A stretch of 64,000 nt of DNA, taken from contig CANRDN010000010.1 in NCBI GenBank assembly GCA_947629375.1, positions 1 to 64,000 on the forward strand. The letters run 5' to 3'. The stretch's first letter is position 1. Each line of letters opens with the position of its first letter. The DNA comes from an uncultured Bacilli bacterium. Its GTDB lineage: Bacteria > Bacillota_I > Bacilli_A > RF39 > UBA660. Shown piece after piece: positions 10,931 through 64,000 of this stretch. Both the position numbers and the translations under genes were made by a program. The notes beneath the pieces were generated by a model, which was given only the letters and a program-made list of their open reading frames with translations, did no database searches and had not been told where the DNA came from.

Positions 10931-10964
10931 AGAAAAATATGCTATAATAAAAAATGGTGAGAAT

Positions 10965-11249
10965 ATGAAGAAAGTAAAACTACTAGAACAAGATTATAAC
11001 CTTATTAAAGATGAAAATAATGCCTTTGATTTAGAAACTTTATCGACACTTGCAACGGATTACTTTAAACCATACGATTATATCTTTGGTGATTATTCTT
11101 ATGGTAAATTAAGACTTAAAGGTTTTTATGATGACAAGAGTAAAAATGCTAATAAAATCAACAAAATAAGCACTTTGGATGAATATATTAAAGATTATTG
11201 TGCTTATGGATGTAAGTATTTTCTACTAGAAAAAGAAAAAAATAATTAA
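10965..11249 (+). CDS. yutD: YutD family protein
   Basis: A cytoplasmic protein of 94 residues. The block YDYIFGDYSYGKLRLKGFYD followed by ISTLDEYIKDYCAYGCKYFLLEK matches the YutD family of Bacilli, whose role is unknown. The ATG at 10965 is preceded by GGTGAGAAT. A longer reading from 10872 would run into yunB and adds no conserved sequence. It lies 34 bases after yunB. Confidence 0.82.
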   Translation: MKKVKLLEQDYNLIKDENNAFDLETLSTLATDYFKPYDYIFGDYSYGKLRLKGFYDDKSKNANKINKISTLDEYIKDYCAYGCKYFLLEKEKNN

Positions 11250-11313
11250 ATTTTGTTGAAAAGAATTACAAATGTGATAAAATTGTTATATAAAGAATAA
11301 GGAGGCTATTTAT

Positions 11314-11586
11314 ATGGATGAAGAGAAAAAGATAATGTCAATTGTTCTTGAGGATGGTTCAATTGATGAGGTTGAAGTCTTATTATCCTTTAAATTTACG
11401 GATACTAACACAGAATATATGGTTTATACAAAGAACGAAACCGATGATAATGGTAATGTAACTATTTATGTTGCATCAGTCGATAGAACTGATGGAGGAG
11501 ATCCAAGACTTGGAAGTGTTGACAGTGAAGAGGAATGGACAAGAATCAAAAATGTTTTAAAAGAATTATCAAAACCAGTTGAATAA
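11314..11586 (+). CDS. DUF1292 family protein (YrzB-like)
   Basis: A small acidic cytoplasmic protein (90 residues) with the pattern of DUF1292: an N-terminal VLEDGSIDEVEVLLSF strand pair, EYMVYTKN, then VASVDRTDGGDPRLGSVDSEEEW. The function of the family is unknown. It has a strong AAGGAGG Shine-Dalgarno. A likely promoter lies just upstream (TTGAAA, 16 bases, TAAAAT at about 11254-11281). Confidence 0.75.
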   Translation: MDEEKKIMSIVLEDGSIDEVEVLLSFKFTDTNTEYMVYTKNETDDNGNVTIYVASVDRTDGGDPRLGSVDSEEEWTRIKNVLKELSKPVE

Positions 11587-11609
11587 AAAAATAATACGGA
11601 GGTGTTCTT

Positions 11610-14009
11610 ATGAGCAATGTATTGGAATTAACTACAATAACCGCTAGGGGAAATAGAATAGAACATGTTGGTTGGGGAGAACCTAGTAAACTAAGATTTA
11701 CTCCAGCAACAGAGCAATCACTTAGAAAGAATATAAAAGCCAATATGCCTAAAATCTTAGAAGCTTTTAATTCTGAATACAATAGAATATTAAGCGCTTA
11801 TGTTATAGAAGCAACTGCTCAAGCAGAACAACAAGCAAGAGATAATGCTCTAAATGATACTAAGGCAGAGGCTCAAAGAGCAGCTAGAATAGACGAAGAG
11901 AATAGACTAGCAAAAATCACTTCAGCTGGTATAGTAAAAAGAAGAAGTAATGTTTTAAGATTAGATGTTCAAAAACTTACAGGAAGATTTGGAACATTAG
12001 GACAAAATTTTGGGGTAAATGTAAAGCAGGGATATACTCCAAAAGCTTTAAGCATACCTTCATTTTATAGAAAAGTATATCAAACAATTTCTAAAAAATC
12101 AGATTTATATAAATTAGCCGATGAGTTAGATGCAACTGATCCAAGCTTATTAGGAGAGCAACAAACAGAGACAAAGAAAGCAAATTGGAGAGGTTTGTTC
12201 GAAAATACAAGCGCACCTGTAGTAAATGAAGTTAATGTTGCTATGGAAGGTGAGGAAGAGGAAAATGTTGTAATACCTACTCAAGAAGTACAAGAAGGAT
12301 TGACAGCAGGAGATATCAAACAAAGAAGTTTAATTGGTCAAATTGGTGATGAATTAACTGAAATAGATACGATGATTAACAGTCTAGGTGGAGAAAATTC
12401 ACCATTTAATAAAGGACTTGTTGAAAGAAAAATTAACTTACTAAATATGCTTGCTGATATAACAGGAGTTCAATCAATTGCTCAAGAAAGAGTAACTTCT
12501 CAAAAGAAAGAAGAGAATACTACTTTCCAAAATCTTATCGAAGATATTCTTGGAGTTACAGAACCTGTTAGCAAAGATGAACACGATCAAAAGCAAGATG
12601 AACTTGATGCTTACTATTCAAATCCAGAAGTATCAGAAATTATCGATAATTTAAGAGAAAAACAAATTCTATTTGGACTTAACAATCCTGAAAACTATAA
12701 GAAAGTTGCAGAAGCAGAAAGAGAAGCAGATAGAAGAGTTGTTGAAAGTTTACTAGAAGAAAGTGAAAAGAAGGAAGAAAAAGCAACTGAACCAGCAAAA
12801 CCAAGCATTAAAACAATAACAGTTGAACCTTTAATAACTAGTGAACCTGAAGTTATAGATACGAATAAACAAATTGAAGTAGCAAAAGAAGAAGAAAAAA
12901 AGAGAGCTTTAGAAGAAGAAGCAAAAGCTCTTGAAGCTCGTAAAGCTGAAGAAGCAAGACTCGCTGAAGCGCAAGCTTTAAAAGAAGCAAAGGAAAAAGA
13001 AGAAAGAGAAAGCATCATAATGGGTGCTGAAGAACAAGCAAAAATTTTGTTTGAACAAAATCAACTTGATGAACTTCTTTTAGGAGCTCAAGAACAAGCT
13101 AAATTATTAAATAAACAAAATGAACTTGCAGAAATTTATGCAGGTGCCGAAGAACAAGCAAAAATGCTTCAAACATTGAATTATTTTATAGATAGAAAAG
13201 AACTTGAAGAATTAAGAGCGCAAAAAGCCCAAGCAGAAAAAGAAAAATTAGCAAGAGAACAAGCAGAAGCACGTAAACAAGAAGAAAAAGCTGAACACGA
13301 AAGACTTGTTGCTGGAGCACAGGAACAAGCTCGTATGTTACAAGCTCAAAAAGAACACGATGACTTAGTAGAAGGAGCAAAAGAAGAGGCTCGTAGACTT
13401 AAAGCTAGAGCTGAAAAGGAAGAACTAGTTTCTGGTGCTCAAGAACAAGCTCGTATGCTACAAGCTCAAAAAGAACACGATGATTTAGTAGCAGGTGCTG
13501 AGGAACAAGCAAAGATGTTGAGTGTTGCTAAAGAAGAAGAGAAAGAAGTAACTCCTACACAAGCTGATGTTGCAAATCAAATAGTATATGAAAACGCTAC
13601 TGAAGATTTCATTAGAGAAGGAGCAGCAGAGCAAGCAATATTAATTCACAAAGCAAACGAAAGAGCAAAAGTATTAGAATCTGCTAAACAACAAGCTAAA
13701 ATGTTAGCTGAACAAGAAGAACCAGTTGTAGGAAAAGTTGCAGAAAAACCAGAAGATTTATTAACAACTAAACTTGGTCCAAATGTAATGAAACTTGATC
13801 TTAATGATAAATATTTAAGTGAAGTAGCTGAAGCAAGAAAAATAAAATTAAGAGATGTTCACTTCAAACAATTAATGTCATCATTAAATGCAGGACATAG
13901 TAATAAATATAAATATTTAAAAGAGTTAAGAGATGAATTAGCTGCAAGTGATGAATCTCCTGAATATGGTTTTCTTACATATGGTGAACAAGTAATGAAA
14001 AAAGCTTAG
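11610..14009 (+). CDS. Large coiled-coil protein with GAEEQAKML repeats, function unknown
   Basis: A 799-residue cytoplasmic protein with no signal peptide or membrane helix. The N-terminal 130 residues are Ala/Glu/Arg-rich, and residues about 130-340 look globular. From about residue 465 to 710 there are eight or more copies of a roughly 20-residue unit built on G-A-x-E-Q-A-(K/R)-M-L, which should form long amphipathic helices. The last 60 residues (TKLGPNVMKLDLNDKYLSEV...) are non-repetitive. It follows a DUF1292 gene by 23 bases with AGGAGGTG as Shine-Dalgarno and ends at a terminator. I do not recognise a family; a filament or scaffold is conceivable. Confidence 0.8.
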   Translation: MSNVLELTTITARGNRIEHVGWGEPSKLRFTPATEQSLRKNIKANMPKILEAFNSEYNRILSAYVIEATAQAEQQARDNALNDTKAEAQRAARIDEENRLAKITSAGIVKRRSNVLRLDVQKLTGRFGTLGQNFGVNVKQGYTPKALSIPSFYRKVYQTISKKSDLYKLADELDATDPSLLGEQQTETKKANWRGLFENTSAPVVNEVNVAMEGEEEENVVIPTQEVQEGLTAGDIKQRSLIGQIGDELTEIDTMINSLGGENSPFNKGLVERKINLLNMLADITGVQSIAQERVTSQKKEENTTFQNLIEDILGVTEPVSKDEHDQKQDELDAYYSNPEVSEIIDNLREKQILFGLNNPENYKKVAEAEREADRRVVESLLEESEKKEEKATEPAKPSIKTITVEPLITSEPEVIDTNKQIEVAKEEEKKRALEEEAKALEARKAEEARLAEAQALKEAKEKEERESIIMGAEEQAKILFEQNQLDELLLGAQEQAKLLNKQNELAEIYAGAEEQAKMLQTLNYFIDRKELEELRAQKAQAEKEKLAREQAEARKQEEKAEHERLVAGAQEQARMLQAQKEHDDLVEGAKEEARRLKARAEKEELVSGAQEQARMLQAQKEHDDLVAGAEEQAKMLSVAKEEEKEVTPTQADVANQIVYENATEDFIREGAAEQAILIHKANERAKVLESAKQQAKMLAEQEEPVVGKVAEKPEDLLTTKLGPNVMKLDLNDKYLSEVAEARKIKLRDVHFKQLMSSLNAGHSNKYKYLKELRDELAASDESPEYGFLTYGEQVMKKA

Positions 14010-14031
14010 GAAGTAAATGCTTCCTTTTTTC
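14008..14031 (+). terminator. Intrinsic terminator
   Basis: The 6-bp stem AGGAAG/CTTCCT is followed by a T run just after the coiled-coil gene stop. Confidence 0.78.
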
Positions 14032-14080
14032 TTTGCTTATAATTCTTTTATTTTTATCATAAAATTAATTGGTGATAGTT

Positions 14081-14938
14081 TTGGAACAAGTTTTATTTCT
14101 TTTTTATAATTTAGTAGAATTAAAAAACAAAAAACGAATCGATAATGGAATTTACTTTATAAAAAAAAATACAAAATACTTGTTTTTAGAATTTAAAGAT
14201 GTAAATGTACCATTTCTTCTTTTTACACAGAATTTTTTAAAATTTCATAAAATAATTTTAAACAAATATAAAGAACCAATATCTATTTTTTATGGAAGAC
14301 AGTATCTTCTTATGAAAATAAATGAAAATTTAATTAATAGATATATAAATTTAGAAGATGTAATTGAGCTATCTAATATAAAAGTATTTTTAAATTCTTC
14401 CAAAATAAATTATTTACAAGTTTGGGAAAATAAAATAAATTTTTTTGAGAACTATTTTAAAACATCTAAATGTGCTTTTTATATGGATCACGATTATTTT
14501 TTAGGTCTTGCTGAAATTTCTTTTACTATTGCTAAAGAAATTAATTTCAATAATATTACTTATGGTTTTTCAATGAATAGATTTTATAAGATAGAGACAA
14601 TATATGATTTGTATAATCCAGTTAATAATTCTTATGGCCCAATTGTTAACAGCATTTCTGAATATATTAAATATGCTTACTTTACATTAAATAAAAAAGA
14701 AGACTTTAATAAAATCTTTACTTTAAAATTTACAAAAGATGATATTTTATTTTTAATTGCTAGACTTATTTTTCCTACATATTACTTTGATATATATAAA
14801 ATAGAAGATAATTATGACGACTATAATACAATTGTTAATAAGATAGAAGGATATATTACTTATATAAAAGAAATATTTGAAGAAATTAAAAAAAGGTATA
14901 ATTTACCTTTCTTAAATATTATAATTAATCTACTTTAA
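14081..14938 (+). CDS. YutH/CotS-like spore coat protein (tentative)
   Basis: A 285-residue soluble protein. Its length, a WENKINFFENYF-like segment, a YMDHDYFLGLAE segment and a C-terminal helix pair recall the YutH/CotS kinase-like coat proteins. The next gene is a YutI-like NifU domain, which is also yutH's neighbour in B. subtilis. Sequence conservation is weak, so context carries most of this call. The start is TTG at 14081, with GGTGAT four bases upstream; the TTG at 14069 lies before that signal. Its 3' end overlaps the convergent gene by 14 bases. Confidence 0.5.
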   Translation: MEQVLFLFYNLVELKNKKRIDNGIYFIKKNTKYLFLEFKDVNVPFLLFTQNFLKFHKIILNKYKEPISIFYGRQYLLMKINENLINRYINLEDVIELSNIKVFLNSSKINYLQVWENKINFFENYFKTSKCAFYMDHDYFLGLAEISFTIAKEINFNNITYGFSMNRFYKIETIYDLYNPVNNSYGPIVNSISEYIKYAYFTLNKKEDFNKIFTLKFTKDDILFLIARLIFPTYYFDIYKIEDNYDDYNTIVNKIEGYITYIKEIFEEIKKRYNLPFLNIIINLL

Positions 14939-15152
14939 TTACTTGTTTAACTTCAGGAATCTCATTAACGAGTATTTCTTCAATTCCTTCTTTTAATGTT
15001 ACATCAATTAATGAACATCCTGAACAAGCACCAGTTAATTTAACATAGACATTGCCATCTTCAAATTTTACAAATTCGATGTTTCCACCATCACTTTGTA
15101 GAAAAGGTTTGATTTTTTCAATTTCCTCTATAATCCTTTTGTTTATATCCAT
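14925..15152 (-). CDS. NifU C-terminal domain protein (YutI-like Fe-S scaffold)
   Basis: A 75-residue protein consisting only of the NifU C-terminal domain. The motif CSGCSLIDVTL supplies the two Cys that hold an Fe-S cluster, and SDGGNIEFV is the conserved N-terminal block. It is expected to act in iron-sulfur cluster assembly or delivery. On the minus strand, GGTGATG precedes the ATG at 15152; longer readings start inside that signal. It is convergent with the YutH-like gene. Confidence 0.87.
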   Translation of the reverse strand: MDINKRIIEEIEKIKPFLQSDGGNIEFVKFEDGNVYVKLTGACSGCSLIDVTLKEGIEEILVNEIPEVKQVIKVD

Positions 15153-15251
15153 TTTCATCACCAAACTAATTATATATTTTTAATCAAATTAAGTAAAGTG
15201 TAATTGCTAAAATAAAAAAATCTTGATATAATCATCGATGAAGGTGTATTA

Positions 15252-15611
15252 ATGGCAAAGTATGAAAAAGATAATATTGTTACAGGTTATGTAACAGGCA
15301 TTGAACCTTATGGCATATTTGTCTCTTTAGATGATTATTATGATGGTCTTATTCATATTTCTGAAATTTCAAGTGATTATGTAAAAAATGTTTCTGATTT
15401 TGCTGTAATTGGTGAAACATTAAAAGTGAAAATATTAGATGTAGATGAAAAAAAGCATCAAATAAAATTAACGATTAAAGATATCGATTATAGAAATAAA
15501 AAAAATGCAAAGATAAAAGAAACAATTCACGGTTTTGAGACATTAAAGGAAAAATTACCATATTGGATTGATGAGAAAATAGGAGAAAATAGCAAAAAAA
15601 AGGATATATAA
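15252..15611 (+). CDS. S1 domain RNA-binding protein (YugI/GSP13-like)
   Basis: A 119-residue protein with one S1 domain in residues 1-75 (VTGYVTGIEPYGIFVSL, DGLIHISEIS, then KVKILDVDEKKHQIKLTIKD). It is followed by a basic tail. This matches the general stress protein 13 / YugI group that binds RNA or ribosomes. The start is preceded by AAGGTG and a TATAAT box near 15229. The tRNA cluster promoter follows immediately. Confidence 0.8.
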   Translation: MAKYEKDNIVTGYVTGIEPYGIFVSLDDYYDGLIHISEISSDYVKNVSDFAVIGETLKVKILDVDEKKHQIKLTIKDIDYRNKKNAKIKETIHGFETLKEKLPYWIDEKIGENSKKKDI

Positions 15612-15623
15612 GTTATTTTTTTG

Positions 15624-15652
15624 TTGACAAAACCCATCTCAAATGTTATATT
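15624..15652 (+). promoter_or_regulatory. Strong promoter of the first tRNA unit
   Basis: TTGACA (15624-15629), a 17-base spacer, then TATATT (15647-15652). The first tRNA starts 34 bases downstream of the -10 box. Confidence 0.85.
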
Positions 15653-15685
15653 TTATATTGTCATATGTGATGGGTCCATATTTTT

Positions 15686-15762
15686 GGAGGATTAGCTCAG
15701 TTGGTTAGAGCACCTGCCTTACAAGCAGGGGGTCATAGGTTCGAGTCCTATATCCTCCACCA
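15686..15762 (+). tRNA. tRNA-Val(TAC)
   Basis: A full cloverleaf with acceptor GGAGGAT/ATCCTCC, anticodon TAC in TTACAAG, T-loop TTCGAGT and encoded CCA. First gene of a five-tRNA unit. Confidence 0.96.
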
Positions 15763-15771
15763 TATTTTTGT

Positions 15772-15847
<76 letters not shown>

Positions 15848-15853
15848 TTTTTT

Positions 15854-15937
15854 GGAGAGGTAGCGAAGTGGCTAAACGCGGCAGACTGTAAATCTGTTCC
15901 TTCGGGTTCGATGGTTCGAATCCATCTCTCTCCACCA
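15854..15937 (+). tRNA. tRNA-Tyr(GTA)
   Basis: A class II tRNA with a long variable arm; anticodon GTA in CTGTAAA; encoded CCA. Confidence 0.95.
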
Positions 15938-15941
15938 GGAT

Positions 15942-16016
15942 TGCCTCGTAGCCAAGCGGTAAGGCACGAGACTTTGACTCTCGCATGCGCTAGTCCGAAT
16001 CTAGCCGAGGCAGCCA
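15942..16016 (+). tRNA. tRNA-Gln(TTG)
   Basis: Acceptor TGCCTCG/CGAGGCA, anticodon TTG in CTTTGAC, encoded CCA. Confidence 0.95.
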
Positions 16017-16021
16017 TATTT

Positions 16022-16097
16022 GTTCCGTTAGCTCAGTCGGTAGAGCATTTGACTTTTAATCAAAGGGTCTGGAGTTCGAATCTCCAACGGGACACCA
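16022..16097 (+). tRNA. tRNA-Lys(TTT)
   Basis: Acceptor GTTCCGT/ACGGGAC with one wobble pair, anticodon TTT in CTTTTAA, encoded CCA. Last of the first unit. Confidence 0.96.
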
Positions 16098-16108
16098 TTT
16101 ATGAATTG

Positions 16109-16131
16109 AAAAGCCTTTTAGGCTTTTTATT
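16109..16131 (+). terminator. Terminator of first tRNA unit
   Basis: AAAAGCC/GGCTTTT stem followed by T-rich sequence. Confidence 0.82.
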
Positions 16132-16227
16132 TTTAATAGAACTATAACAATTTAAAATTTATTTGAGGAATAATTATAAAATCCCTTAATAAAATAACTA
16201 ATATAGGCAACAAAAAGCAAAAAATAC

Positions 16228-16256
16228 TTGCTTATTTAAAAAAATTGTTATATAAT
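16228..16256 (+). promoter_or_regulatory. Promoter of second tRNA unit
   Basis: TTGCTT (16228-16233), a 17-base spacer, then TATAAT (16251-16256), 29 bases before tRNA-Leu. Confidence 0.75.
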
Positions 16257-16285
16257 CAAATAGTCTTAACGAAAAAAAGACAGTT

Positions 16286-16374
16286 GCCTGAGTGGCGGAA
16301 TAGGTAGACGCACAGGACTTAAAATCCTGCGAGTGTCATAGCTCGTGCCGGTTCAAGTCCGGCCTTAGGCACCA
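16286..16374 (+). tRNA. tRNA-Leu(TAA)
   Basis: A class II tRNA; acceptor GCCTGAG/CTTAGGC, anticodon TAA in CTTAAAA, encoded CCA. Confidence 0.96.
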
Positions 16375-16383
16375 CTTAATTTT

Positions 16384-16476
16384 GGAGGAATACCCAAGTC
16401 TGGTTGAAGGGACCGGTCTTGAAAACCGGGAGGTCGAGCAATCGGCGCAGGGGTTCGAATCCCTTTTCCTCCGCCA
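16384..16476 (+). tRNA. tRNA-Ser(TGA)
   Basis: A class II tRNA with a long variable arm; anticodon TGA in CTTGAAA; encoded CCA. Confidence 0.95.
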
Positions 16477-16494
16477 ATTTATTTTTTTACATAT

Positions 16495-16570
<76 letters not shown>

Positions 16571-16572
16571 AT

Positions 16573-16648
16573 GGTTTCGTAGTGCAGTGGTTAACACGTC
16601 TGCCTGTCACGCAGAAGATCACGGGTTCAATCCCCGCCGAAACCGCCA
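16573..16648 (+). tRNA. tRNA-Asp(GTC)
   Basis: Acceptor GGTTTCG/CGAAACC, anticodon GTC in CTGTCAC, encoded CCA. Confidence 0.95.
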
Positions 16649-16653
16649 TTTAT

Positions 16654-16729
<76 letters not shown>

Positions 16730-16751
16730 TTTTAATTGAATTTGTATCCAC

Positions 16752-16828
16752 GCGCTCGTAGCTCAGCTGGATAGAGTGTTTGGCTACGAACCAAAAGGTC
16801 AGGGGTTCGAATCCCTTCGGGCGCACCA
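16752..16828 (+). tRNA. tRNA-Arg(ACG)
   Basis: Acceptor GCGCTCG/CGGGCGC, anticodon ACG in CTACGAA (A34 expected to be edited to inosine), encoded CCA. Confidence 0.95.
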
Positions 16829-16841
16829 TTTTTTTATAGCT

Positions 16842-16918
16842 CGGGAAGTGGCTCAATTTGGTAGAGCACTTGGTTTGGGACCAAGGGGTTGCAGGTTCAA
16901 ATCCTGTCTTCCCGACCA
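16842..16918 (+). tRNA. tRNA-Pro(TGG)
   Basis: Acceptor CGGGAAG/CTTCCCG, anticodon TGG in TTTGGGA, encoded CCA. Last of the second unit. Confidence 0.95.
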
Positions 16919-54656: not shown

Positions 54657-54672
54657 ATAAAGGGTTTATGAG

Positions 54673-54780
54673 GTAAGGAAAGTAAAAAATAGTTAAAAAA
54701 TCAATTTCGTGTACCAATTCGTGTACCAAAATAACAAACTTCAGTGAAATTGATTTTAATTATTTTTAACTATTCCTTAC
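54673..54780. repeat. 35-bp imperfect inverted repeat around GTGTACCAA repeats
   Basis: The left arm (54673-54708) and right arm (54746-54780) are near-perfect reverse complements, beginning GTAAGGAA and ending CAATTTC. The 37-base loop contains tandem TTCGTGTACCAA copies that start inside the left arm. It lies between a decayed and an intact tRNA-Gly, a likely scar or site of mobile DNA. Confidence 0.7.
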
Positions 54781-54831
54781 ATCAAAATCTATCAAAAAAT
54801 TAACATCTGTGTTATAATAAAAATTGCTTAT

Positions 54832-54906
54832 GCAGGTATAGTACAGTGGTTAGTACACCGCGTTGCCAACGCGGGAACGGCAGTTCGAATCTGCTTACTT
54901 GCTCCA
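54832..54906 (+). tRNA. tRNA-Gly(GCC), probable integration site
   Basis: A full cloverleaf: acceptor GCAGGTA/TACTTGC with one wobble, anticodon GCC in TTGCCAA, T-loop TTCGAAT, encoded CCA. The integrase gene of the mobile region begins (by its 3' end) 58 bases downstream, the usual layout of tRNA-targeting elements. No second copy of its 3' end is found up to base 64000. Confidence 0.95.
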
Positions 54907-54917
54907 TTAGTTAATTA

Positions 54918-54941
54918 ACCTCTATTTTTAGAGGTTTTCTT
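54918..54941 (+). terminator. Terminator after tRNA-Gly
   Basis: AACCTCT/AGAGGTT stem followed by T residues. Confidence 0.78.
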
Positions 54942-54950
54942 ATGTAATAA

Positions 54951-54977
54951 AACCCAAAGACCATTATCTTTGGGTTA
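54951..54977 (-). terminator. Terminator of the integrase operon
   Basis: Read on the minus strand, AACCCAAAGAT pairs with CTTTGGGTT and is followed by TTATT; it overlaps the integrase stop codon. Confidence 0.7.
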
Positions 54978-56547
54978 TTTGTTCCTTTAAAGGTTCAATC
55001 TTTATCTTCTTATAAATTGGTTTAAATCCTATCAGCAATGCTTCTATATCTTCATCATCTAATTCATCATCAATTTTAGCAATCTTATTAAAAATAGGAA
55101 ACAAATCAAATAAATAGTTTTTACACAATTGCAAATCAGTATCATAATCAATCTCATCAACTGATTTATTCAATATTTTTTGCAATACATTATTAATTTT
55201 GCGCTTGTTATTCAGTCTACCCATGCATATACTATATAACTCAGCATAACTAACACCTAAAGCATTTCTAAATTCCTCATCAAACTTTTCTAACAACCGT
55301 CTGTCATCATCTAGATTACTCTGTTCATATACTGCCATCATCGTACTATCTTTAGACCATCCAAAGCGCTTCTTAACAGCTTTAAAATTTGTCTCACCTT
55401 GTAACATAAAACTAGCCGAACTATGTCTAACAATTCTTAGAGGTAAATCCTGACTATTGTATCCTAACTGATCAAGGAATTTGTTCCACTCTTCGGTATA
55501 TCTATCTGGACTAATTAACTCATTATCATCCCATGAAGTAAAAATAAAATCATCATTTGACACTTTCATACCTAATTCTTCTCTAAAAGATCTATAATGA
55601 TCTATTAAGCTTAATACACAATCACTTATTGTAATTTCTCGAATACTAGCATCTGTTTTAAGAAGATCTTCAACAATCAATTCGCCTGTTAATCTTGATT
55701 TAGTAACTGAACGCATAATATTAATTGTGCTTCTATATCTATTAATATCAGAAAACTTAATTGCTACCGCTTCCTCAATACGCATGCCTGTTTCTAAAAC
55801 CAAGTTAATTAAGGTTTTAAACCTAATATTCTTTTTACTGATCTCATCTAATACAAAATGCATATCAATAGTAGCTAGGTAATCTCTATTTTTAGGTCTA
55901 TATTTAGGTTTACCCTTAGTAGCATCAAAAGGATTCGAAGAAATGACTTTTAATGTATTTTTAAAGTATTCGAATGCCATATGAACGAATGCATAATGTC
56001 TATTAGTTGTATTCTCTGATAATAATTCATCACTATCTAATCTTCTAGTAGAAAGTAGCTTATCAACAAAAGCTTGTGCAATTTCAGTAGATACATCTAC
56101 TATTTTCATATTCAACAAATCCGATTCACTGATTAATCTATCTTTATATGTAATTAGGTTCTTCTCGTAAGTAGATCTACGCAACTCAGGCTTACCTGAA
56201 GGGCCTTTCTTATTAACTAATTCTTTTCTATATTCAAGAAAATTCTCAAATCCATCTTTAACAGTAAAATCAATATAAGCATTAATACCTTCTCGCTGTG
56301 TCCTTACACATTGTTTTCTAATAGAGTCAAGAATTTCCCATTTCCTATTAATAGCATTAAGAAGACCATATACAACCTCAGTATATCTTTCCTTACTGCC
56401 TGGCTTTCTTATAGAAATTCTAAACTTATCAGGACCAATTTCAGAAATATACTTTAAGTCCTCGTCAGTTATTTTTAACTCTTTTGCCTTATTAAAGGAA
56501 ATGGAGAACCTTTCTAAGGTTTCTTTAGAAAGCTTAGATTTGTTCAT
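54964..56547 (-). CDS. Large tyrosine recombinase (element integrase)
   Basis: A 527-residue site-specific recombinase. The C-terminal catalytic domain has GMRIEEAVAIKFSD (first Arg), VRHSSASFML (box II Arg-His), GWSKDSTMMAVYEQ with the nucleophile Tyr. The box II His of HxxR appears as Arg (RIVR), a substitution allowed in the family, and the next conserved position is Trp (GW). About 100 N-terminal residues and an 80-residue C-terminal tail exceed the usual 380-400. It ends 58 bases from tRNA-Gly. GGAG lies upstream; it overlaps the HTH gene by 14 bases. Confidence 0.88.
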   Translation of the reverse strand: MNKSKLSKETLERFSISFNKAKELKITDEDLKYISEIGPDKFRISIRKPGSKERYTEVVYGLLNAINRKWEILDSIRKQCVRTQREGINAYIDFTVKDGFENFLEYRKELVNKKGPSGKPELRRSTYEKNLITYKDRLISESDLLNMKIVDVSTEIAQAFVDKLLSTRRLDSDELLSENTTNRHYAFVHMAFEYFKNTLKVISSNPFDATKGKPKYRPKNRDYLATIDMHFVLDEISKKNIRFKTLINLVLETGMRIEEAVAIKFSDINRYRSTINIMRSVTKSRLTGELIVEDLLKTDASIREITISDCVLSLIDHYRSFREELGMKVSNDDFIFTSWDDNELISPDRYTEEWNKFLDQLGYNSQDLPLRIVRHSSASFMLQGETNFKAVKKRFGWSKDSTMMAVYEQSNLDDDRRLLEKFDEEFRNALGVSYAELYSICMGRLNNKRKINNVLQKILNKSVDEIDYDTDLQLCKNYLFDLFPIFNKIAKIDDELDDEDIEALLIGFKPIYKKIKIEPLKEQITQR

Positions 56548-56848
56548 GAGTTCTCCATGACATTAAACTATGTGGATTCTTATGAGTTCTTTCTTTAAGA
56601 AACTTCTCAATGTCACTAATATAGAAGTGTCTTTCATTTCCAATTCGTACAACAGGAAGTAAACCCTCATTAATTGCTTTTGTTAAAATATACTTAGATA
56701 ACGCTGGATATATCTTTGTAACCTCAGTAATACTACATAGTTGATCTGTATTCTCTTTAAGCTTATTGATTTCCATATTATCCTCATATACTTTTATAAG
56801 CTTATAAAACTCCATAGCCACATCGCTTAAACGAAATTCTTTGTTCAT
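56534..56848 (-). CDS. HTH protein, excisionase-like
   Basis: A 104-residue protein. Residues about 35-92 form a MerR/excisionase-type winged HTH: CSITEVTKIYPALSKYILTKAI then LPVVRIGNERHFYISDIEKFLKE. Directly upstream of and overlapping the integrase gene, it is probably the directionality factor or an operon regulator. AAAGGATGG precedes the ATG. Confidence 0.75.
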   Translation of the reverse strand: MNKEFRLSDVAMEFYKLIKVYEDNMEINKLKENTDQLCSITEVTKIYPALSKYILTKAINEGLLPVVRIGNERHFYISDIEKFLKERTHKNPHSLMSWRTHEQI

Positions 56849-57252
56849 TAATTACCATCCTTTCTAAATACAATTCTTTTGTCTAATCTAGAAACTATTT
56901 CATCTACAATATAGTTCCTTACCTCATTGTGAAGATCTATTGCCTTAGGTTGTGTAAATACTCTTGATTTAACATTATCTGTCCACATATTATTTGCAGT
57001 ACAATCGATATGGTGACCAATCAAAACAACCATTTGATTATTGAAATCTCTTTTTCTTGGCAAATAGGTCCATATAACAAGATCTATCTCAGGATTATAT
57101 GTATCAAAGATTTTCAATAAAGTTCCTTGTTCGATACCATCATTGAAAACTTCAATAACACCATCGATATCAATATTATTTTTTTGTAATAAATCTTTTA
57201 CACCAGGAAAGATTTTCCCGGACTTTATAATCTTATCGCTCCAACGTATCAT
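56848..57252 (-). CDS. Hypothetical element protein
   Basis: A 134-residue soluble protein, not recognised. The conserved-looking core is EIDLVIWTYLPRKRDFNNQMVVLIGHHIDC. The stop overlaps the next ATG (one base), so it is translationally coupled to the HTH gene and the integrase. GGAGGGAA is the Shine-Dalgarno. Confidence 0.65.
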   Translation of the reverse strand: MIRWSDKIIKSGKIFPGVKDLLQKNNIDIDGVIEVFNDGIEQGTLLKIFDTYNPEIDLVIWTYLPRKRDFNNQMVVLIGHHIDCTANNMWTDNVKSRVFTQPKAIDLHNEVRNYIVDEIVSRLDKRIVFRKDGN

Positions 57253-57316
57253 TAGCTAATTCCCTCCGTTTTCTTTGTATTTAAACGTACAATAGGAATT
57301 AAAGCAACTTGGGTAA

Positions 57317-58399
57317 TCATAGTTGATCGCCTTCTTCCAATTCCTTGAAATAAGCGTATTCAGGAATAAAATCCAAAGGGACAGAAACATGATCTAGTCC
57401 AAATCGGGATTTCACAATATTTAAACAAATTTTCTTTTGTTTTGGACCACCTAAAACTGTTGTTTCTTCACCAGCTGTTATTCGGATGAGAACATCAGCC
57501 ATATATTCTATGTTGCCACTTTCTTTACTAAAAGAAAGGTCATATTCAGAATTTTCATTAAAACTTGACTTGCTATAAGAAGAACGATTCATGGATGTAA
57601 TCACGATTATAGGTACATTATATATACTGCTATATCTCTTAAGTTCATTAATGACCTTATCAATTTCTAATCTCTTATCATAGACACTATAAGAGTTATC
57701 TTCTTCTGTAGATGAACTGAGTTTATTTTCCATCCTTTGTAAAAAATCAATTACTACTACAGGGTTAGCGTTTAAGAAAAGTTGAACATTCTTAATAGCA
57801 ACCTCCACAGAAGCAACATCGTTTACAGCTGAATCATTTCCTTTATTATCTAGAGTAGGTGAAATAACATTAATATACGGATCATAAGTTGTGTGATATT
57901 TTCTGTAAATTTCCCTTATACTGTCTTTTATATGTTCTCCATCTAATAACAACTTTGGATTAGACAACTCATTAATTGTCATATTTTCCAAATCTTGATT
58001 TCTGTATGTAGAGTTTGCTAAAAGCCTTAGACTAGTTTGCAGCTCAGACATATCTAAATTGAAGTATAGACTACACCTTTTGTGTTCTGCAATATTCATT
58101 AAAATATGCAATAGAAAACTACTTTTTCCCATACCGGGGATGGCTCCTATAACATATAATCCAGCCCTAAGACCACCACCCAATTTCTCATCAAGTGATT
58201 TGATACCTGTAGGAATGACTTCGCTTTTTTTAATATTCGTTTTAGTATCTTGTAAGCCTTTTAAGTAATTACCTATAACATCATTCTTAAAACTGCTTAT
58301 AGATTTTTCCTTAAATCTTCTAATCGTATTATTAAAACCTTCCTCATAAACCTCATTATTATATAATGTCTCTCCCTTGGCGTTATTAAAAATAAACAT
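57317..58399 (-). CDS. DnaB/RecA-type ATPase, second helicase-like protein
   Basis: A 360-residue ATPase. After about 60 N-terminal residues comes a DnaB C-terminal-type core: GIKSLDEKLGGGL, Walker A GAIPGMGKSS (about 86), LYFNLDMSELQ, Walker B PVVVIDFLQRM (about 216), then IVITSMNRSSY and a sensor-like LVRITAGEE region. It lacks the DnaB primase-binding N-domain. It may be a helicase or a loader working with the larger DnaB-like protein. GGAGG lies 9 bases before the ATG at 58399. GTG at 58402 is possible. Confidence 0.8.
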   Translation of the reverse strand: MFIFNNAKGETLYNNEVYEEGFNNTIRRFKEKSISSFKNDVIGNYLKGLQDTKTNIKKSEVIPTGIKSLDEKLGGGLRAGLYVIGAIPGMGKSSFLLHILMNIAEHKRCSLYFNLDMSELQTSLRLLANSTYRNQDLENMTINELSNPKLLLDGEHIKDSIREIYRKYHTTYDPYINVISPTLDNKGNDSAVNDVASVEVAIKNVQLFLNANPVVVIDFLQRMENKLSSSTEEDNSYSVYDKRLEIDKVINELKRYSSIYNVPIIVITSMNRSSYSKSSFNENSEYDLSFSKESGNIEYMADVLIRITAGEETTVLGGPKQKKICLNIVKSRFGLDHVSVPLDFIPEYAYFKELEEGDQL

Positions 58400-58457
58400 C
58401 ACTATTCACCTCCATCCTGTTAATAATCACTATATTATTGCATAGCTTCTTAATCAT
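58386..58457 (-). CDS. Leader peptide, 23 residues
   Basis: A small minus-strand ORF with a perfect AGGAGG seven bases before its ATG (58457). It encodes MIKKLCNNIVI followed by a short polar part, and stops inside the start region of the ATPase gene in another frame. Such an overlap usually couples translation of the downstream gene. Confidence 0.5.
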   Translation of the reverse strand: MIKKLCNNIVIINRMEVNSDVYF

Positions 58458-58771
58458 AAATATCCCTCCTTATATTTGATTAAAAATGCATTTGGCGGAG
58501 ACTAAAAATAATAGGAAGTCTCTATGCCATAACAGCAAAAGCGCGGAATATTTCTTCTGTAAGAAGTCAGTATGTCCTAATCCCTCAACTTATATAATCT
58601 AGTAAGGGAGAGTAAGGTATTAATAATTCTCAAAATGATTTGTTGAGCGATTAGTACATACTAACATAAGGTACAAAGCATCAAGATTTGCTCAACAATA
58701 TTAGCATTTAGAAAATAGAAAAATATACTTTAAAAATCTAAAAATTCAAAACTTAAAGTTAAAAATAAACT
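58458..58771 (-). ncRNA. Structured non-coding segment between helicase-region genes
   Basis: About 310 bases without a gene, rich in inverted repeats: TGTTGAGC/GCTCAACA (58641-58697) with an inner GTAC/GTAC; GGC-GGAGACT/AGTCTCT-GCC (58494-58528); and CTTCT/AGAAG (58555-58565). It precedes the leader peptide and the second ATPase gene. It could be a regulatory leader, a counter-transcribed RNA target or an origin region; the sequence does not decide. Confidence 0.45.
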
Positions 58772-60010
58772 TTAAAATTTCAACTTAATCAATAAATCAC
58801 CTGTCCTGATAAGATATGCTAATCTAGCTTTGTCAAAAGCTAAGTTACTCTTAGTATAAATTTCATTATATAGTTTAACTACTTGAACACTAATATCCTC
58901 TTTATTGGTTAATTCCTTAGAAGCAACTATATATTTGTGTAGATCAATTTCTTTATTTCTTATTACAAAGTAAGCAGAAAATTGACGAACACATTGTAAA
59001 TTTGTTAAACATAAAAGAATTGCTTTTAAAAGTTTACAAATTGATTCTTTCGAATTTGCTTGATTAACAATTTGATAAAAGTAAGTGTAACCTCCAATTT
59101 TTGAATTGTTATAAACATAAATTTCATTAGTCAAATCACTTAATTTCTTGTTATATACTAGATTGTGTTTATTTCCCTTTAACTTCAAATTAAGATAATA
59201 ATCAAGCTTACTAGCAACTGTATATCCTAAATAATTTAGTCTAAGACTTTCTATAGGAAAATAGTTATAAATTTGCTTTAAGGTATATCTTAATTTCATA
59301 AAATTAACAATTCGACATATAATACCTTTAATTTCTACTGATTCCCCATCAATACCATTTCGATTCTTCTTAGGTAAATAAAGAATACTAATATTTGCAA
59401 TTCTTTCTCTATCACCATCTACTAACTGACTTTTCTTTAATTTGTCAGCATAGTATGAATTCTTAAAACTCCAGTACACTTTCTTCGTATTTAACTTTTC
59501 ACAAGTAATGACAATCTGTTCCTTTAATTTTACATTATTTATATGTGGAAAAATTAACCTTAAAGAAGAAATTGGTATATAAACATAATTATCATTAAAA
59601 CCAGCTTTACTACTTAAAGAGATATAATAATGATTAATTAGTTTTAATAACTTCATTTCTGCTAGAGTAAAAGTAGCATTATGCACATCTATTCCAAAAG
59701 AAAAGCTCTTAGCCTTACCATATAAGATTTCTTTCTGATAAATGTTATTTGAATAATCATTACATGTAATGCTCATATCAAACATCTCATATGTGAACTT
59801 GTCACCAAAATCACTTATAGTTTTTGATATATCAACATTATGCCTATAAGCCAAATCATGTGATAAAAATTTCAAATAGCTTTGTATTGAATCATATAAT
59901 GGATCAATTGCTGCATAATTAGTTGCCTCAGCAATAGTAGCATCTAAACCATCATTAGGTTGTAATTTAAAGATGCCATCCTTTTGCATTTGTTTTAATG
60001 CATTAAACAT
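58772..60010 (-). CDS. Unrecognised element protein, possible replication initiator
   Basis: A 412-residue basic protein with no motif I can name. Residues about 105-200 (FTLAEMKLLKLI; IPISSLRLIFPHINN) could be a winged-helix pair like those in plasmid initiators, and a C-terminal all-helical part follows. It lies between two DnaB-type ATPase genes, so a role in replication start is an inference from position only. GGGAG lies 9 bases before the ATG at 60010, two bases after the upstream stop. Confidence 0.6.
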   Translation of the reverse strand: MFNALKQMQKDGIFKLQPNDGLDATIAEATNYAAIDPLYDSIQSYLKFLSHDLAYRHNVDISKTISDFGDKFTYEMFDMSITCNDYSNNIYQKEILYGKAKSFSFGIDVHNATFTLAEMKLLKLINHYYISLSSKAGFNDNYVYIPISSLRLIFPHINNVKLKEQIVITCEKLNTKKVYWSFKNSYYADKLKKSQLVDGDRERIANISILYLPKKNRNGIDGESVEIKGIICRIVNFMKLRYTLKQIYNYFPIESLRLNYLGYTVASKLDYYLNLKLKGNKHNLVYNKKLSDLTNEIYVYNNSKIGGYTYFYQIVNQANSKESICKLLKAILLCLTNLQCVRQFSAYFVIRNKEIDLHKYIVASKELTNKEDISVQVVKLYNEIYTKSNLAFDKARLAYLIRTGDLLIKLKF

Positions 60011-60012
60011 AA

Positions 60013-61539
60013 TCAATCACTCCCATAATCAAATGTAATTTCTCCAAACTCATCACCAATGCCACCTTGTCTACCTATAGCTGTATTTAAACCTAAGTCA
60101 TCAAAATCACTATAGTTATCAAACACACCCATAATATCTTGGAAAGTATCATCATCCATGGTCGTATGAATCGTAGAACCTGTACTGCCAATTAATTGAT
60201 GAGCAAAATCTGCAGGAACAACCATCGCATCATTAGAACGATTGCCGTCTCTATTCTTTAAGATACCAATCTTGGCTTGTTTAGAAACAATTAATGAAGG
60301 ATCGGAGAAAATACCTAAAATAACTGCAGCACAAGTCTCTAACTCATTAGCTTCCTTAAGAGCTGTCATATCATACATACCATCTCTTCTAATCGCTTTC
60401 TGATAACCTTGTCGATTAATTTGTGAAACCAGAATAGTATGAATCTGTCTCTTTGTCTTAAGAAAATCTAAACAGTTACTTCTAAAGTAATTACACCATC
60501 TATTGATAACAGTATTCTCTGAAAGATTTGATGACTGATCAGAGTAAGCTAACATTTGAATGTGGTCAATAATAAGTAAATCTAACCCTTTGCCAGTTTC
60601 CTCAATACATAAATTCTCAATCTCTTGTAGCTTACTATCAAATACAAAGTAATCATAAGACTCGATGTCTTGTTCATCCAAAATATAGAACTTACCCGGT
60701 AATGAGTCTAAATCAGGTAAAATATCACTCTCAACATAATCTCTTTCTTCTTTTGTTAAAGATTTAGACTTTAGATTCTTGTGTTCAATCTTCTTAGTCA
60801 TCTTAGGTTCCAAAGAATGTCTAGAAATTAAGTTATACATTAAATGTTCTGCTGAAATTTCCAAAGAAATGTAACAAACATTGTAACCCTGTGTTATAGC
60901 AGAATGCATAATACTTACTGAACAAATAGATTTACCCATACCAGTAAAACCAGCTAAAACTGAAACTTGACCAGCTTTAAGACCACCAATCTCTTTATCT
61001 ATTTGCTCTATACCAGTCTTGATACCAGAGTTATCTAATTTCCGATCATATAAATCTACTATTCTATCCATAATGTTTTCATACTTTACATTGGTAGAAC
61101 TCGAATTCAAAATATTTGTGAAATGTTCCATAATTTCTGGTGTCTTTCCCTCAACAGGAATTCGCTTTGCCTCATTAATTAACAACTTACTAGTGTTTAA
61201 ATCCTTTCTTTGGGTAACAAACAACTTAACAAGCGATAGCACATCTTGCATTTCAACGTTAGAATCAACCTTAGTCTTTGAAAATTGATTTTGAAAAATT
61301 TCAAAAGAAGGAATAGCATTTAACTTCTTATATAAATTTTCAAAAGTAAAAAGCATTGTTTCTTCATTATTGGATAATAACTTATTGTCCAAAAGACTAC
61401 TCTTAATGAAACTAATACAATCCTTAACTAGATTCTCATTTGCATTGCATAGGTTCTTTATTATGTCTTCAAAACGATATGCTCTAACAACGCTAGTTCC
61501 TATTTTCAATTGTGATTCTTTATAATTATTACAAATCAT
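60013..61539 (-). CDS. DnaB-like replicative helicase
   Basis: A 508-residue RecA-fold helicase. The C-terminal core has GIEQIDKEIGGLKAGQVSVLAGFTG, Walker A GFTGMGKS (about 200), CYISLEISAEHLMYNL, Walker B LLIIDHIQML (about 321) and LVSQINRQGY, then TALKEANELE; these follow DnaB order. The N-terminal 150 residues are helical and could be a diverged DnaB N-domain. It probably unwinds the element DNA. ATG at 61539 is chosen because AGAAAGGAAA lies 9 bases upstream; TTG at 61572 precedes that signal. Confidence 0.87.
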   Translation of the reverse strand: MICNNYKESQLKIGTSVVRAYRFEDIIKNLCNANENLVKDCISFIKSSLLDNKLLSNNEETMLFTFENLYKKLNAIPSFEIFQNQFSKTKVDSNVEMQDVLSLVKLFVTQRKDLNTSKLLINEAKRIPVEGKTPEIMEHFTNILNSSSTNVKYENIMDRIVDLYDRKLDNSGIKTGIEQIDKEIGGLKAGQVSVLAGFTGMGKSICSVSIMHSAITQGYNVCYISLEISAEHLMYNLISRHSLEPKMTKKIEHKNLKSKSLTKEERDYVESDILPDLDSLPGKFYILDEQDIESYDYFVFDSKLQEIENLCIEETGKGLDLLIIDHIQMLAYSDQSSNLSENTVINRWCNYFRSNCLDFLKTKRQIHTILVSQINRQGYQKAIRRDGMYDMTALKEANELETCAAVILGIFSDPSLIVSKQAKIGILKNRDGNRSNDAMVVPADFAHQLIGSTGSTIHTTMDDDTFQDIMGVFDNYSDFDDLGLNTAIGRQGGIGDEFGEITFDYGSD

Positions 61540-61617
61540 AAATAAGCTTTCCTTTCTATTAAACTTAATCAAGTCCTCATTACATTTTTAGTGCAGTTTT
61601 GGCTCTTGACAAATACG

Positions 61618-61623
61618 ATTATA
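61618..61623 (-). promoter_or_regulatory. -10 box of the minus-strand element operon
   Basis: TATAAT on the minus strand, about 80 bases before the helicase start; no clear -35 box. Confidence 0.4.
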
Positions 61624-61635
61624 CTCATCGCGCAA

Positions 61636-61672
61636 TTGACCAAAATTGAAATAAGCGTTATAATAAGCGTTA
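61636..61672 (+). promoter_or_regulatory. Plus-strand promoter with overlapping 10-bp direct repeats
   Basis: TTGACC (61636-61641), a 17-base spacer, TATAAT (61659-61664). Two identical ATAAGCGTTA repeats (61651-61660 and 61663-61672), 12 bases apart, overlap the -10 box and look like an operator. Confidence 0.65.
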
Positions 61673-61743
61673 CAAGAATCAAATAACATCATTATCAAAA
61701 ATTATCAAAGGATATTAAAAGCTTAAAAAGAAAGGATAGTGTT

Positions 61744-63012
61744 ATGAAAACATTAGTTAAAATTCATAGATTTAAAAAATATGAAAAGTACAATTTAAGC
61801 GTTGACGAAGCAGTTGGAGACATATTGTTGACAGGATATAACCAGTTAGAATGTTCATCAGAGGATTCACTAGACATTTCACAATTAGTTAAAAAGACAT
61901 ATAACCTTGGTAAAAAGTTAGTTAAAATAATTAATGATCGAAGTAAAGAACTTGGGATAAATGAAGATGATACAAGAAAATTGGATAAGTATGATAAAAA
62001 TACAATCAATGATAAAATTAAAGAACGTATAGAAAAATTCATCTCAATGCCTAATAAAAACTATCCACATTATAAAGCCATGAGTAAATTTTATGGTACT
62101 GCAATAGATTTATTGCAAAAATACAATATTGAATGTGAAATTGAACAAACATTAAAGAGTAAAATAAAAAACTGGGATATTATTGACAATTTGGTATATT
62201 CTGCTGAAGAATTATCGGAACTTGAACGTAATTATAAAAACATATTTAATAAAGTATTAGAAAACATTGATACACATAATTTCACTTCATTAATTAACTA
62301 TTTAAGTGACATCCCATATACTATTTCAAAATTTAATGAAGAAATATTAAATATCAGACAAGATTCAAGCCAAGAAAGTGCAAAAAAAATATTTGAAGCA
62401 ATAGTAGAATGGTGCCAAGAGTTTGGATTGCCATTTTGTTCAGAAAATAAAAAACTTTATGGAATTATAAAAGATAAAATTATTACTGATGGGGAAATTT
62501 ATGAATGTTGGGATAGTAGTAATGTAAGAGATGAATCATTAAGCATAGGCGAGTATGCAAAAAATACTGTTCCAATCAACAATTTCATTGGAATTTGTCT
62601 CTTAATATATGAATTTTATAATGCTACAAGTTATGATAATTGGGATATTCAGCTAATTGAATATTATCATAGACAAGTTATGGAAAGATATAACAATATC
62701 TTCAATATTCCGCTTAAAATATATGAAAAAAAGATTCCTATAATAAAAGATAATAAAAAAATATTATATAACGTAAAAGAATATGAGAGTGTAGCGATTG
62801 CAGCATGGGATGTTTTCTACCATGATTACTTTGGTAATCCAAACTTTCCTCTTTCAGAACCTATAGAATTTTGTGATGAATGTCAAAAAGAAATAAAAGA
62901 ATCAGGACATATTACAAAATCCGGATTACATCTTTGTAATGAATGCTTTGCCAAAAGGAAAAAAATTCAGGGTAAAGAAAGACAAAATAGGTTTAGAAAA
63001 AATAAAAAATAA
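61744..63012 (+). CDS. Unknown protein with C-terminal zinc ribbon
   Basis: A 422-residue, mostly helical protein. The only recognisable part is a treble-clef or ribbon near residues 376-402 (CDECQKE ... CNECFAKRKK), followed by a basic tail likely to touch nucleic acid. It is the only plus-strand gene of the element and is divergent from the helicase operon, sharing a short region with an apparent operator. AAAGGAT precedes the ATG. No family is recognised; a regulator or defence factor are both conceivable. Confidence 0.65.
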   Translation: MKTLVKIHRFKKYEKYNLSVDEAVGDILLTGYNQLECSSEDSLDISQLVKKTYNLGKKLVKIINDRSKELGINEDDTRKLDKYDKNTINDKIKERIEKFISMPNKNYPHYKAMSKFYGTAIDLLQKYNIECEIEQTLKSKIKNWDIIDNLVYSAEELSELERNYKNIFNKVLENIDTHNFTSLINYLSDIPYTISKFNEEILNIRQDSSQESAKKIFEAIVEWCQEFGLPFCSENKKLYGIIKDKIITDGEIYECWDSSNVRDESLSIGEYAKNTVPINNFIGICLLIYEFYNATSYDNWDIQLIEYYHRQVMERYNNIFNIPLKIYEKKIPIIKDNKKILYNVKEYESVAIAAWDVFYHDYFGNPNFPLSEPIEFCDECQKEIKESGHITKSGLHLCNECFAKRKKIQGKERQNRFRKNKK

Positions 63013-63018
63013 TGGTAA

Positions 63019-63050
63019 TTGTGTCCTATAATTTGAGATATAGGACACAA
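63019..63050. other. Lox-like 12-8-12 inverted repeat
   Basis: TTGTGTCCTATA and TATAGGACACAA are perfect 12-bp inverted arms around the 8-base spacer ATTTGAGA. It lies 46 bases from the stop of a tyrosine recombinase gene. It lacks a T run, and a separate terminator follows, so it is not needed for termination. The geometry matches core sites of tyrosine recombinases. Confidence 0.5.
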
Positions 63051-63062
63051 AATTAAGCATTA

Positions 63063-63089
63063 AAAAAGGGGCTATAATTGCCTCTTTTT
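63063..63089. terminator. Bidirectional terminator
   Basis: AAAAAGGGGC/GCCTCTTTTT with one wobble, A and T runs at the ends; it serves the convergent zinc-ribbon and recombinase genes. Confidence 0.8.
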
Positions 63090-63095
63090 CAAACC

Positions 63096-63992
63096 CTATT
63101 TATCAGAGTTGTTAACATTAAAATAAGCTTCAAGTAGTTTTTCAGGTGCATTAGAAATGCGCTGATCTTCATGTACATATATTGTGGTTGTGTTAATATC
63201 ACTATGCCTTGCAAATATTTGTGCCTGCAGAAGATCATCATTACTTGCTTTTGTAACGGAAGTTATGGCAGTATGCCTTAAACTATGAGGTGTGACTCTC
63301 TTATTCTTAACATTATTTGCTACCAATAATTTAGTAATAATACGCCTTATACTCCTCGTTGTTAGCCTTGTATTCGGTTTATTGTAAGCAAGACCGACAA
63401 ATAGAGGATCAGTAAATTTGTAATCACTACGAGCCACTAAATAATCATTTAAAGCCGCCATAACAGTTGGACAAAGAACAATAAAGCTATTCTTCTCGTT
63501 CTGAAATTTACCTTGAATATACAAGATATTCTCATTATCACGTGTGCTGATATCTTCTACATTTGCACGTTCTAGCTCACACTCCCTCAAACCATTACGA
63601 AGACATAACTCAAAAATTGCATAATCTCGCTTTTCTTGAAGTGTTTCTCTTTTAATATTATTCTGTATAGTCAATGCCTGTTCCCTAGTTAATGGAAGCT
63701 TTTTATGATTCTTACTTTGCTTAACACTTTTTATTGTTGCCATAACATTAGGTATTCCAATAGTTTCTAAATATCGGAATAACGAACGCACCCCAGCTAA
63801 ATATTGATTCACAGTAGAAGCAGATGAATACTTACTAACTAGATACCGCTTATAATCCAGAATAACCTGTCTATTAACTGACTTTATATCATTATTGATA
63901 AGCCAATTCAAAAAATACCGAATACTAGCCAAATAATTATAACTTGTCCCTTTATTAACATCTAATGAATTGGCATAATCCTCAATGATCAT
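63096..63992 (-). CDS. XerC/D-type tyrosine recombinase
   Basis: A 298-residue recombinase. The N-terminal SAM-like core-binding domain (1-85, SYNYLASIRYFLNWL) is followed by the catalytic domain: RNGLRECELERANVED (first Arg), TPHSLRHTAIT (His and Arg), ARHSDINTTTIYVHE (His and the nucleophile Tyr near 271). All catalytic residues are canonical, unlike the larger integrase. Size and layout suit dimer resolution or inversion, and a lox-like repeat lies beside it. The frame stays open for the 8 bases upstream within the window, so the true start could lie a little beyond. Confidence 0.88.
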   Translation of the reverse strand: MIIEDYANSLDVNKGTSYNYLASIRYFLNWLINNDIKSVNRQVILDYKRYLVSKYSSASTVNQYLAGVRSLFRYLETIGIPNVMATIKSVKQSKNHKKLPLTREQALTIQNNIKRETLQEKRDYAIFELCLRNGLRECELERANVEDISTRDNENILYIQGKFQNEKNSFIVLCPTVMAALNDYLVARSDYKFTDPLFVGLAYNKPNTRLTTRSIRRIITKLLVANNVKNKRVTPHSLRHTAITSVTKASNDDLLQAQIFARHSDINTTTIYVHEDQRISNAPEKLLEAYFNVNNSDK

Positions 63993-64000
63993 TTTAGTCG

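Follow-up and report, generated by a model that had tools for sequence, protein, structure and literature searches.

A stretch of genomic DNA from an uncultured Bacilli bacterium, hereafter the window (64,000 nucleotides, positions 1-64000 of contig C10, CANRDN010000010.1, in a fragmented 1.87-Mb assembly), carries a mobile element that begins next to a tRNA-Gly gene and runs to the contig end at 64,629. We propose that this is an integrative, theta-replicating plasmid-like element served in its own replication by a cassette of three parts, namely P0001, an orphan protein and putative initiator, a structured gap, and P0003, a mini-DnaB consisting of the C-terminal ring domain only; we give this proposal about an even chance. 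A relative of the cassette occurs in a second genome within an unrelated element, and both copies have a structured gap and a short leader open reading frame (ORF) that overlaps the start of P0003. The original prediction had framed the element around two ATPases, a framing that we replace with an initiator-like protein, structured gap and mini-DnaB cassette apparently common to two kinds of element. The finding is limited by the existence of two cassette copies and by the missing right end of the element.

Results

A cassette shared with an unrelated element

The second copy of the cassette lies in L046, a Bacilli metagenome-assembled genome from water deer that belongs to the same family as the window's host and holds the same locus as genome G509. 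Here a P0001 homolog (49% identity, E 3e-129) is found just upstream of a P0003 homolog (53%), in the order seen in the window. Searching 84,980 species genomes with a three-sequence mini-DnaB alignment gave L046 as the one close relative of P0003 (E 5e-115), with the next best match at 29%, and nothing close was found among viral contigs. P0001 is similarly restricted. A two-sequence profile run against 386 genomes of the host's family recovered full-length copies in the window and at G509:C17:159809-161065 only, searches of phages, plasmids, viral contigs, genome contigs and relatives returned the L046/G509 copy alone, and none was present among 196 related genomes. Weak matches in G019 and G489 were rejected; the G019 match sits among VirB4-like conjugation genes.

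Around the L046 cassette are two halves of a sigma factor, both on the minus strand and about 15 kb apart, and a 587-aa (amino acid) serine recombinase adjoins the C-terminal half. Joined at a shared AA, the halves score 296 bits on NF004471 (SigK; cut-off 252) and 287 bits against the equivalog TIGR02846, just under its cut-off of 299. This junction was picked by hand for the SigK reading; scripted joins at shared 7-mers gave none, and no reads map it. The second copy therefore appears to sit in a 15-kb element that interrupts sigK and carries a serine recombinase, and in which no structural genes were recognised. Elements of this kind are known across Bacilli and Clostridia (PMC5595907), and a limited literature search found no portable replication-type cassette within one. 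Because the cassette lies at tRNA-Gly with a tyrosine integrase in one case and in sigK with a serine recombinase in the other, it seems to pass between mobile DNA of unrelated kinds. The G509 element (L131, ~1905-16860; G509:C17, ~148.4-163.4 kb) contains, besides the large serine recombinase, a small resolvase, a match to Cas4-like nucleases, a papain-like protease, a GIY-YIG (T5orf172) protein and a 129-aa protein with Walker-like motifs.

Two DnaB-type ATPases

Both ATPases of the window exceed the curated cut-off of DnaB_C (PF03796, 27 bits), P0003 at 91.6 bits and P0002 at 82 bits, which confirms the two DnaB-like ATPases of the original prediction, with lengths of 361 and 519 aa in place of 360 and 508. 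P0002 also matches phage_DnaB (TIGR03600) at 1e-22, far under the cut-off of that family. All catalytic motifs are retained in P0002 (Walker A, the Glu of SLEMS, Walker B and the K-x-R finger); P0003 retains Walker A, Walker B and K-x-R, and the SLEMS Glu is changed to Asp in both the window and L046 copies.

The two ATPases had been taken for a split helicase or helicase-loader pair, that is, one machine defining the element. Their position in one same-strand cluster agrees with this, and the changed catalytic residue could mark P0003 as an altered partner. However, neither protein matches a loader family, both matching DnaB_C, and P0002 is absent near the L046 cassette; the sole P0002 match of that genome, a 452-aa DnaB, is encoded on a different contig. 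The nearest relative of P0002 (32%) is found in L038 (G047:C10), followed directly by a UvsX-like ATPase gene, on a contig with no close P0003. Since P0002 is missing beside the related cassette and its own relative stands elsewhere next to a UvsX-like gene, the two ATPases do not form a conserved pair in the sequences searched, and we consider a split machine very unlikely. The conserved unit would instead be P0001, the structured gap and P0003, as judged from one relative and thus a single comparison.

The 13.5-kb L038 also encodes a protease of the ClpP type, with a match to head maturation proteases of phages, as well as two serine recombinases; its small resolvase is 48% identical to that of the G509 element (L131). 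Elsewhere in the host's family, loci L009 and L010 (G116 and G050) each have an ORF of 263-266 aa, initiator-like as judged by position only, followed by a mini-DnaB. A small ORF ending GMDLSKQYGKPKRK in both loci completes what looks like a second, simpler mini-DnaB cassette.

A structured gap with a leader ORF

The spacing of P0001 and P0003 is ~370 bp in the window; in L046 it is 400 bp, and the two stretches can be aligned. Both copies fold better than shuffled sequences (z -2.0 and -5.8). Each has a long stem, a GGC/GCC-closed hairpin and a short helix that reaches the Shine-Dalgarno region of the leader ORF. This ORF, of 23 and 25 codons in the two copies, opens each time with ATGATTAA and overlaps the P0003 start. 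In the final two-sequence alignment, which was hand-trimmed of variable-loop letters and used only as a search model and for the pair count, 97% of cells pair and 9 of the 32 modelled pairs show two-sided changes; 500 shuffles and the slid versions all fell well short of the real alignment. Three earlier alignments had been dropped for helices out of register and a misplaced GGC hairpin, so that the pair count is that of a chosen alignment. Because of this selection, and because the structure was drawn from the same two sequences, these controls are biased towards structure. The stronger point is that, in both the long stem and the hairpin, the raw sequences themselves display two-sided changes.

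Rfam contains no match for the structured gap. Covariance model R1, run against 86 sources and 395 genomes, recovered the window and L046 copies and no further convincing one; a weak match was seen in L071 (E 0.07), and an opposite-strand match in L046 (E 0.014) is what an inverted repeat would be expected to give. Seven matches to a DNA pattern of the gap in viral contigs were judged by eye to be chance, all having higher GC and the one checked locus being coding.

With an initiator-like gene on one side and a helicase gene on the other, the gap might be the replication origin itself rather than an RNA leader, and would then act either by folding as single-stranded DNA or by offering binding sites to the initiator; long inverted repeats with conserved pairing would suit RNA or DNA. 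Against an origin stand the helix to the Shine-Dalgarno region and the leader ORF overlapping P0003 in both copies, the G-U pairs that the window copy has in its 5′ hairpin, and the lack of iterons. The G-U pairs in this first hairpin and the Shine-Dalgarno pairing favour RNA over folded DNA; we regard an origin at this place as possible but doubtful. Most likely the gap is an mRNA leader that limits translation of P0003. Promoter-like sites for an antisense RNA against the leader were no commoner than in shuffled sequences.

A putative initiator

P0001, the orphan between the ATPases that the original prediction had noted as a 412-residue protein, measures 414 aa from a TTG start and 412 from ATG. 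Nothing in Pfam, NCBIfam, PADLOC or PDB sequences matches it, and its PHROGs matches are at chance level. As to a Rep_3/RepB-type initiator, the Rep3_N domain was not found in P0001 by Pfam, nor did a P0001-family profile match plasmid Reps. Structure modelling gave a mean predicted local distance difference test (pLDDT) score of 33 for P0001 alone and 43 with its homolog, and no significant Foldseek match. The low-confidence model (pLDDT 43) contains two successive helix-strand-helix-helix-strand-strand units, the order expected of two winged helices.

The role of P0001 as a putative initiator is drawn by analogy. Relatives of P0003 and P0006, the latter a XerC-like recombinase, co-occur on the small Firmicutes plasmids pSMQ-316, p29887 and pHD26-2_2, which also carry a RepB-type initiator and are typed as non-mobilizable. 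By analogy with these plasmids, and with the pairing of mini-DnaB and initiator-like ORF in L009 and L010, P0001 would be the initiator and P0003 the helicase.

Integration site and extent of the element

Genes for a kinase, rsgA and rpe precede the tRNA-Gly gene, and at the element the GC skew flips from ~0.22 to ~-0.2. Most element genes (P0005, P0008, P0007, P0003, P0001 and P0002) are on the minus strand, followed by P0004 on the plus strand and P0006 on the minus strand. The contig stops 629 bases past the window end without a right attachment site (attR). The original prediction had suggested looking to the right for a repeat of the tRNA-Gly 3′ end; the 26-nt end was found once in the assembly with up to three mismatches allowed, and cores of 13-18 nt had one occurrence in 1.30 Mb of contig sequence. 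Nor does the end of the contig overlap other contig ends, though other ends have 77 nt in common; contigs C65-C72, whose ends are all identical and apparently masked, stood outside this test.

Within the 9.7 kb seen from 54907 to 64629, which lacks the right end, no relaxase, coupling protein or transfer genes were recognised, and no portal, terminase, capsid, other structural, packaging or lysis genes, in agreement with the original prediction, which had seen no relaxase, portal, terminase or capsid gene. Because the contig ends without attR, capsid or conjugation genes could lie farther on. The element might thus be an ordinary prophage or phage satellite of which only the left end is seen, its structural or packaging genes lying past the end of the contig. 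The relatives of P0005 include integrases of streptococcal satellite phages (23-25% identity), both ATPases match phage DnaB families, the contig of the P0002 relative has the UvsX-like gene and head-maturation-protease match mentioned above, and the right end is missing. However, phage structural, packaging and lysis genes are absent from the part seen, P0001, P0003 and P0004 have no close match in viral contigs, and the one relative of the cassette sits in an element without recognised structural genes. We judge a phage origin unlikely.

Elements integrated at tRNA genes with tyrosine integrases are often conjugative, and an integrative conjugative or mobilizable element seen from its left side only, with relaxase and transfer genes beyond the contig end, would fit the integration site, the integrase and the missing right end. 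The absence of relaxase, coupling protein and transfer genes from the part seen speaks against it, as does the non-mobilizable typing of the small plasmids on which relatives of P0003 and P0006 occur, and such an element seems improbable here.

The proposed plasmid-like element keeps part of the original prediction of a self-replicating integrative plasmid: that the element is integrative and brings replication-type genes of its own is supported, by the small-plasmid relatives of P0003 and P0006 and by the cassette in a second element, whereas a split helicase or loader as its defining feature is not. Several observations weigh against our proposal. Neither a right end nor a circular junction was found for the element, and an exact-repeat search showed no iteron array in either the window element or that of L046/G509. 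The Glu-to-Asp change in P0003 could mean reduced activity, P0001 ties to no initiator by sequence, profile or fold, and the gap structure rests on two sequences in a hand-trimmed alignment.

Other features of the element

The coordinates of all features are collected in Table 1. The gene inventory of the original prediction was borne out, including the tRNA-Gly gene beside a long integrase, the helix-turn-helix (HTH) gene (P0008, whose HTH_17 score is under the cut-off), and the zinc-ribbon protein and XerC-like recombinase; P0007 was missing from it. Profile searches, which it had proposed for the ATPases and the 412- and 422-residue proteins, confirmed DnaB_C in the former and yielded no family match for the latter two. 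The zinc-finger scores of P0004 are at chance level, and its relatives were not found in searches that included viral contigs. Full-length P0006 has 323 aa from a GTG start and is 34% identical to the pSMQ-316 recombinase over 288 aa (E 1e-48). A defence-system reading of P0001-P0004 and P0007 was rejected, as PADLOC gave no match for any of them.

The direct repeat in the divergent intergenic region has two copies only and may be chance. Between rpe and tRNA-Gly (54666-54788), an imperfect inverted repeat of ~43 bases surrounds TTCGTGTACCAA, which occurs there twice as a direct repeat; this may be left over from another insertion or be an att-like site. Past the window, upstream of P0006, an intergenic stretch of the contig (64098-64380) has an apparent hairpin (gcgatttgt ... 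acaaatcg) and may be structured; Rfam has no match for it.

Table 1. Features of the tRNA-Gly element, in window coordinates.
Feature	Position	Strand	Remarks
tRNA-Gly (GCC)	54832..54906	+	ARAGORN; Rfam tRNA 65 bits; presumed integration site, left junction
P0005, 527-aa tyrosine integrase, long C-terminal extension	54964..56547	-	Pfam Phage_integrase 5.2e-15; phrog_1 2.9e-38
P0008, 104-aa HTH protein, possible excisionase	56534..56848	-	HTH_17 0.009; PHROG excisionase-like 0.025; adjoins integrase
P0007, 134-aa orphan	56848..57252	-	no family match (Pfam, PHROGs, NCBIfam, PADLOC)
P0003, mini-DnaB, C-terminal ring domain only, 361 aa	57317..58402	-	DnaB_C 6.7e-26; likely ATG start 58399
Short leader ORF MIKKLCNNIVIINRMEVNSDVYF	58386..58457	-	overlaps P0003 start
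Conserved structured region	58449..58663	-	long stem, GGC/GCC hairpin, helix reaching Shine-Dalgarno region
P0001, 414-aa orphan, putative replication initiator	58772..60016	-	49% to L046 copy, same order
P0002, 519-aa DnaB-like ATPase	60013..61572	-	DnaB_C 5.9e-23; ends adjoining P0001 start
Intergenic region between divergent genes	61573..61743	.	12-bp direct repeat AATAAGCGTTAT; alternative site for origin or promoters
P0004, 422-aa orphan, C-terminal CxxC zinc-ribbon-like motifs	61744..63012	+	weak DksA/LIM-type scores
P0006, XerC-like tyrosine recombinase	63096..64000 (to contig position 64067)	-	Phage_integrase 1.2e-19

Discussion

A possible mode of replication

In the mechanism that we propose, P0005, probably together with P0008, would integrate and excise the element, and theta replication of the resulting circle would proceed from the cassette that it carries. 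P0001, as initiator, would bring the ring of P0003 to the origin, and host primase and polymerase would complete replication. The structured leader and its short ORF probably limit translation of P0003 and so would set the copy number. P0006 would resolve multimers in the manner of recombinases on small plasmids, and P0002 would be an added, accessory DnaB of phage type. Tentatively, and with less confidence than we place in the plasmid-like element, the cassette may be a portable replicon of a new kind. It would combine an initiator family for which no relatives are recognised (P0001), a mini-DnaB with a changed catalytic residue and a previously undescribed structured RNA, bearing a leader ORF, that governs copy number through the helicase instead of the initiator, and it would allow two types of element to replicate after excision.

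If the plasmid-like element is as proposed, mobile DNA of the little-studied gut Bacilli would gain a further replication system, together with an initiator-like family recognised by none of the libraries searched and a structured regulatory element absent from Rfam. The occurrence of the cassette in a sigK-interrupting element also raises the question of whether such elements replicate as circles after excision in sporulation, or borrow plasmid parts for other reasons.

Comparison with known systems

The small plasmids pSMQ-316, p29887 and pHD26-2_2 resemble the window element in having a DnaB_C helicase (27-30% identical to P0003), a XerC-like recombinase (33-35% to P0006) and an initiator gene. 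Unlike P0003, however, their helicase forms the C-terminal half of a larger protein, which in two of the plasmids includes a Toprim primase domain. Two have a Rep3_N initiator, and they are without a tRNA integrase, P0001 and P0002; neither a Rep3_N initiator nor a Toprim-DnaB fusion was found in the window element. The one close relative of the cassette sits in a skin element, the kind that interrupts sigK (PMC5595907), whereas the window element lies at tRNA-Gly with a tyrosine integrase rather than in sigK with a serine recombinase. Matches to phage-type DnaB (phrog_19, TIGR03600) were seen for both P0002 and P0003, but at ~81 and 84 bits against a curated score of 498.65; P0003 is without the N-terminal domain, and P0002 has divergent ends.

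The closest parallel for the gap would be the leader-peptide-coupled copy control of plasmids, exemplified by tap-repA of R1 and repZ of the IncI-alpha plasmid ColIb-P9 (among the references given in PMC10724649). In the window the downstream gene encodes a helicase and not an initiator. Like these plasmids, however, both copies of the cassette combine a structured leader with a short ORF that overlaps a replication gene.

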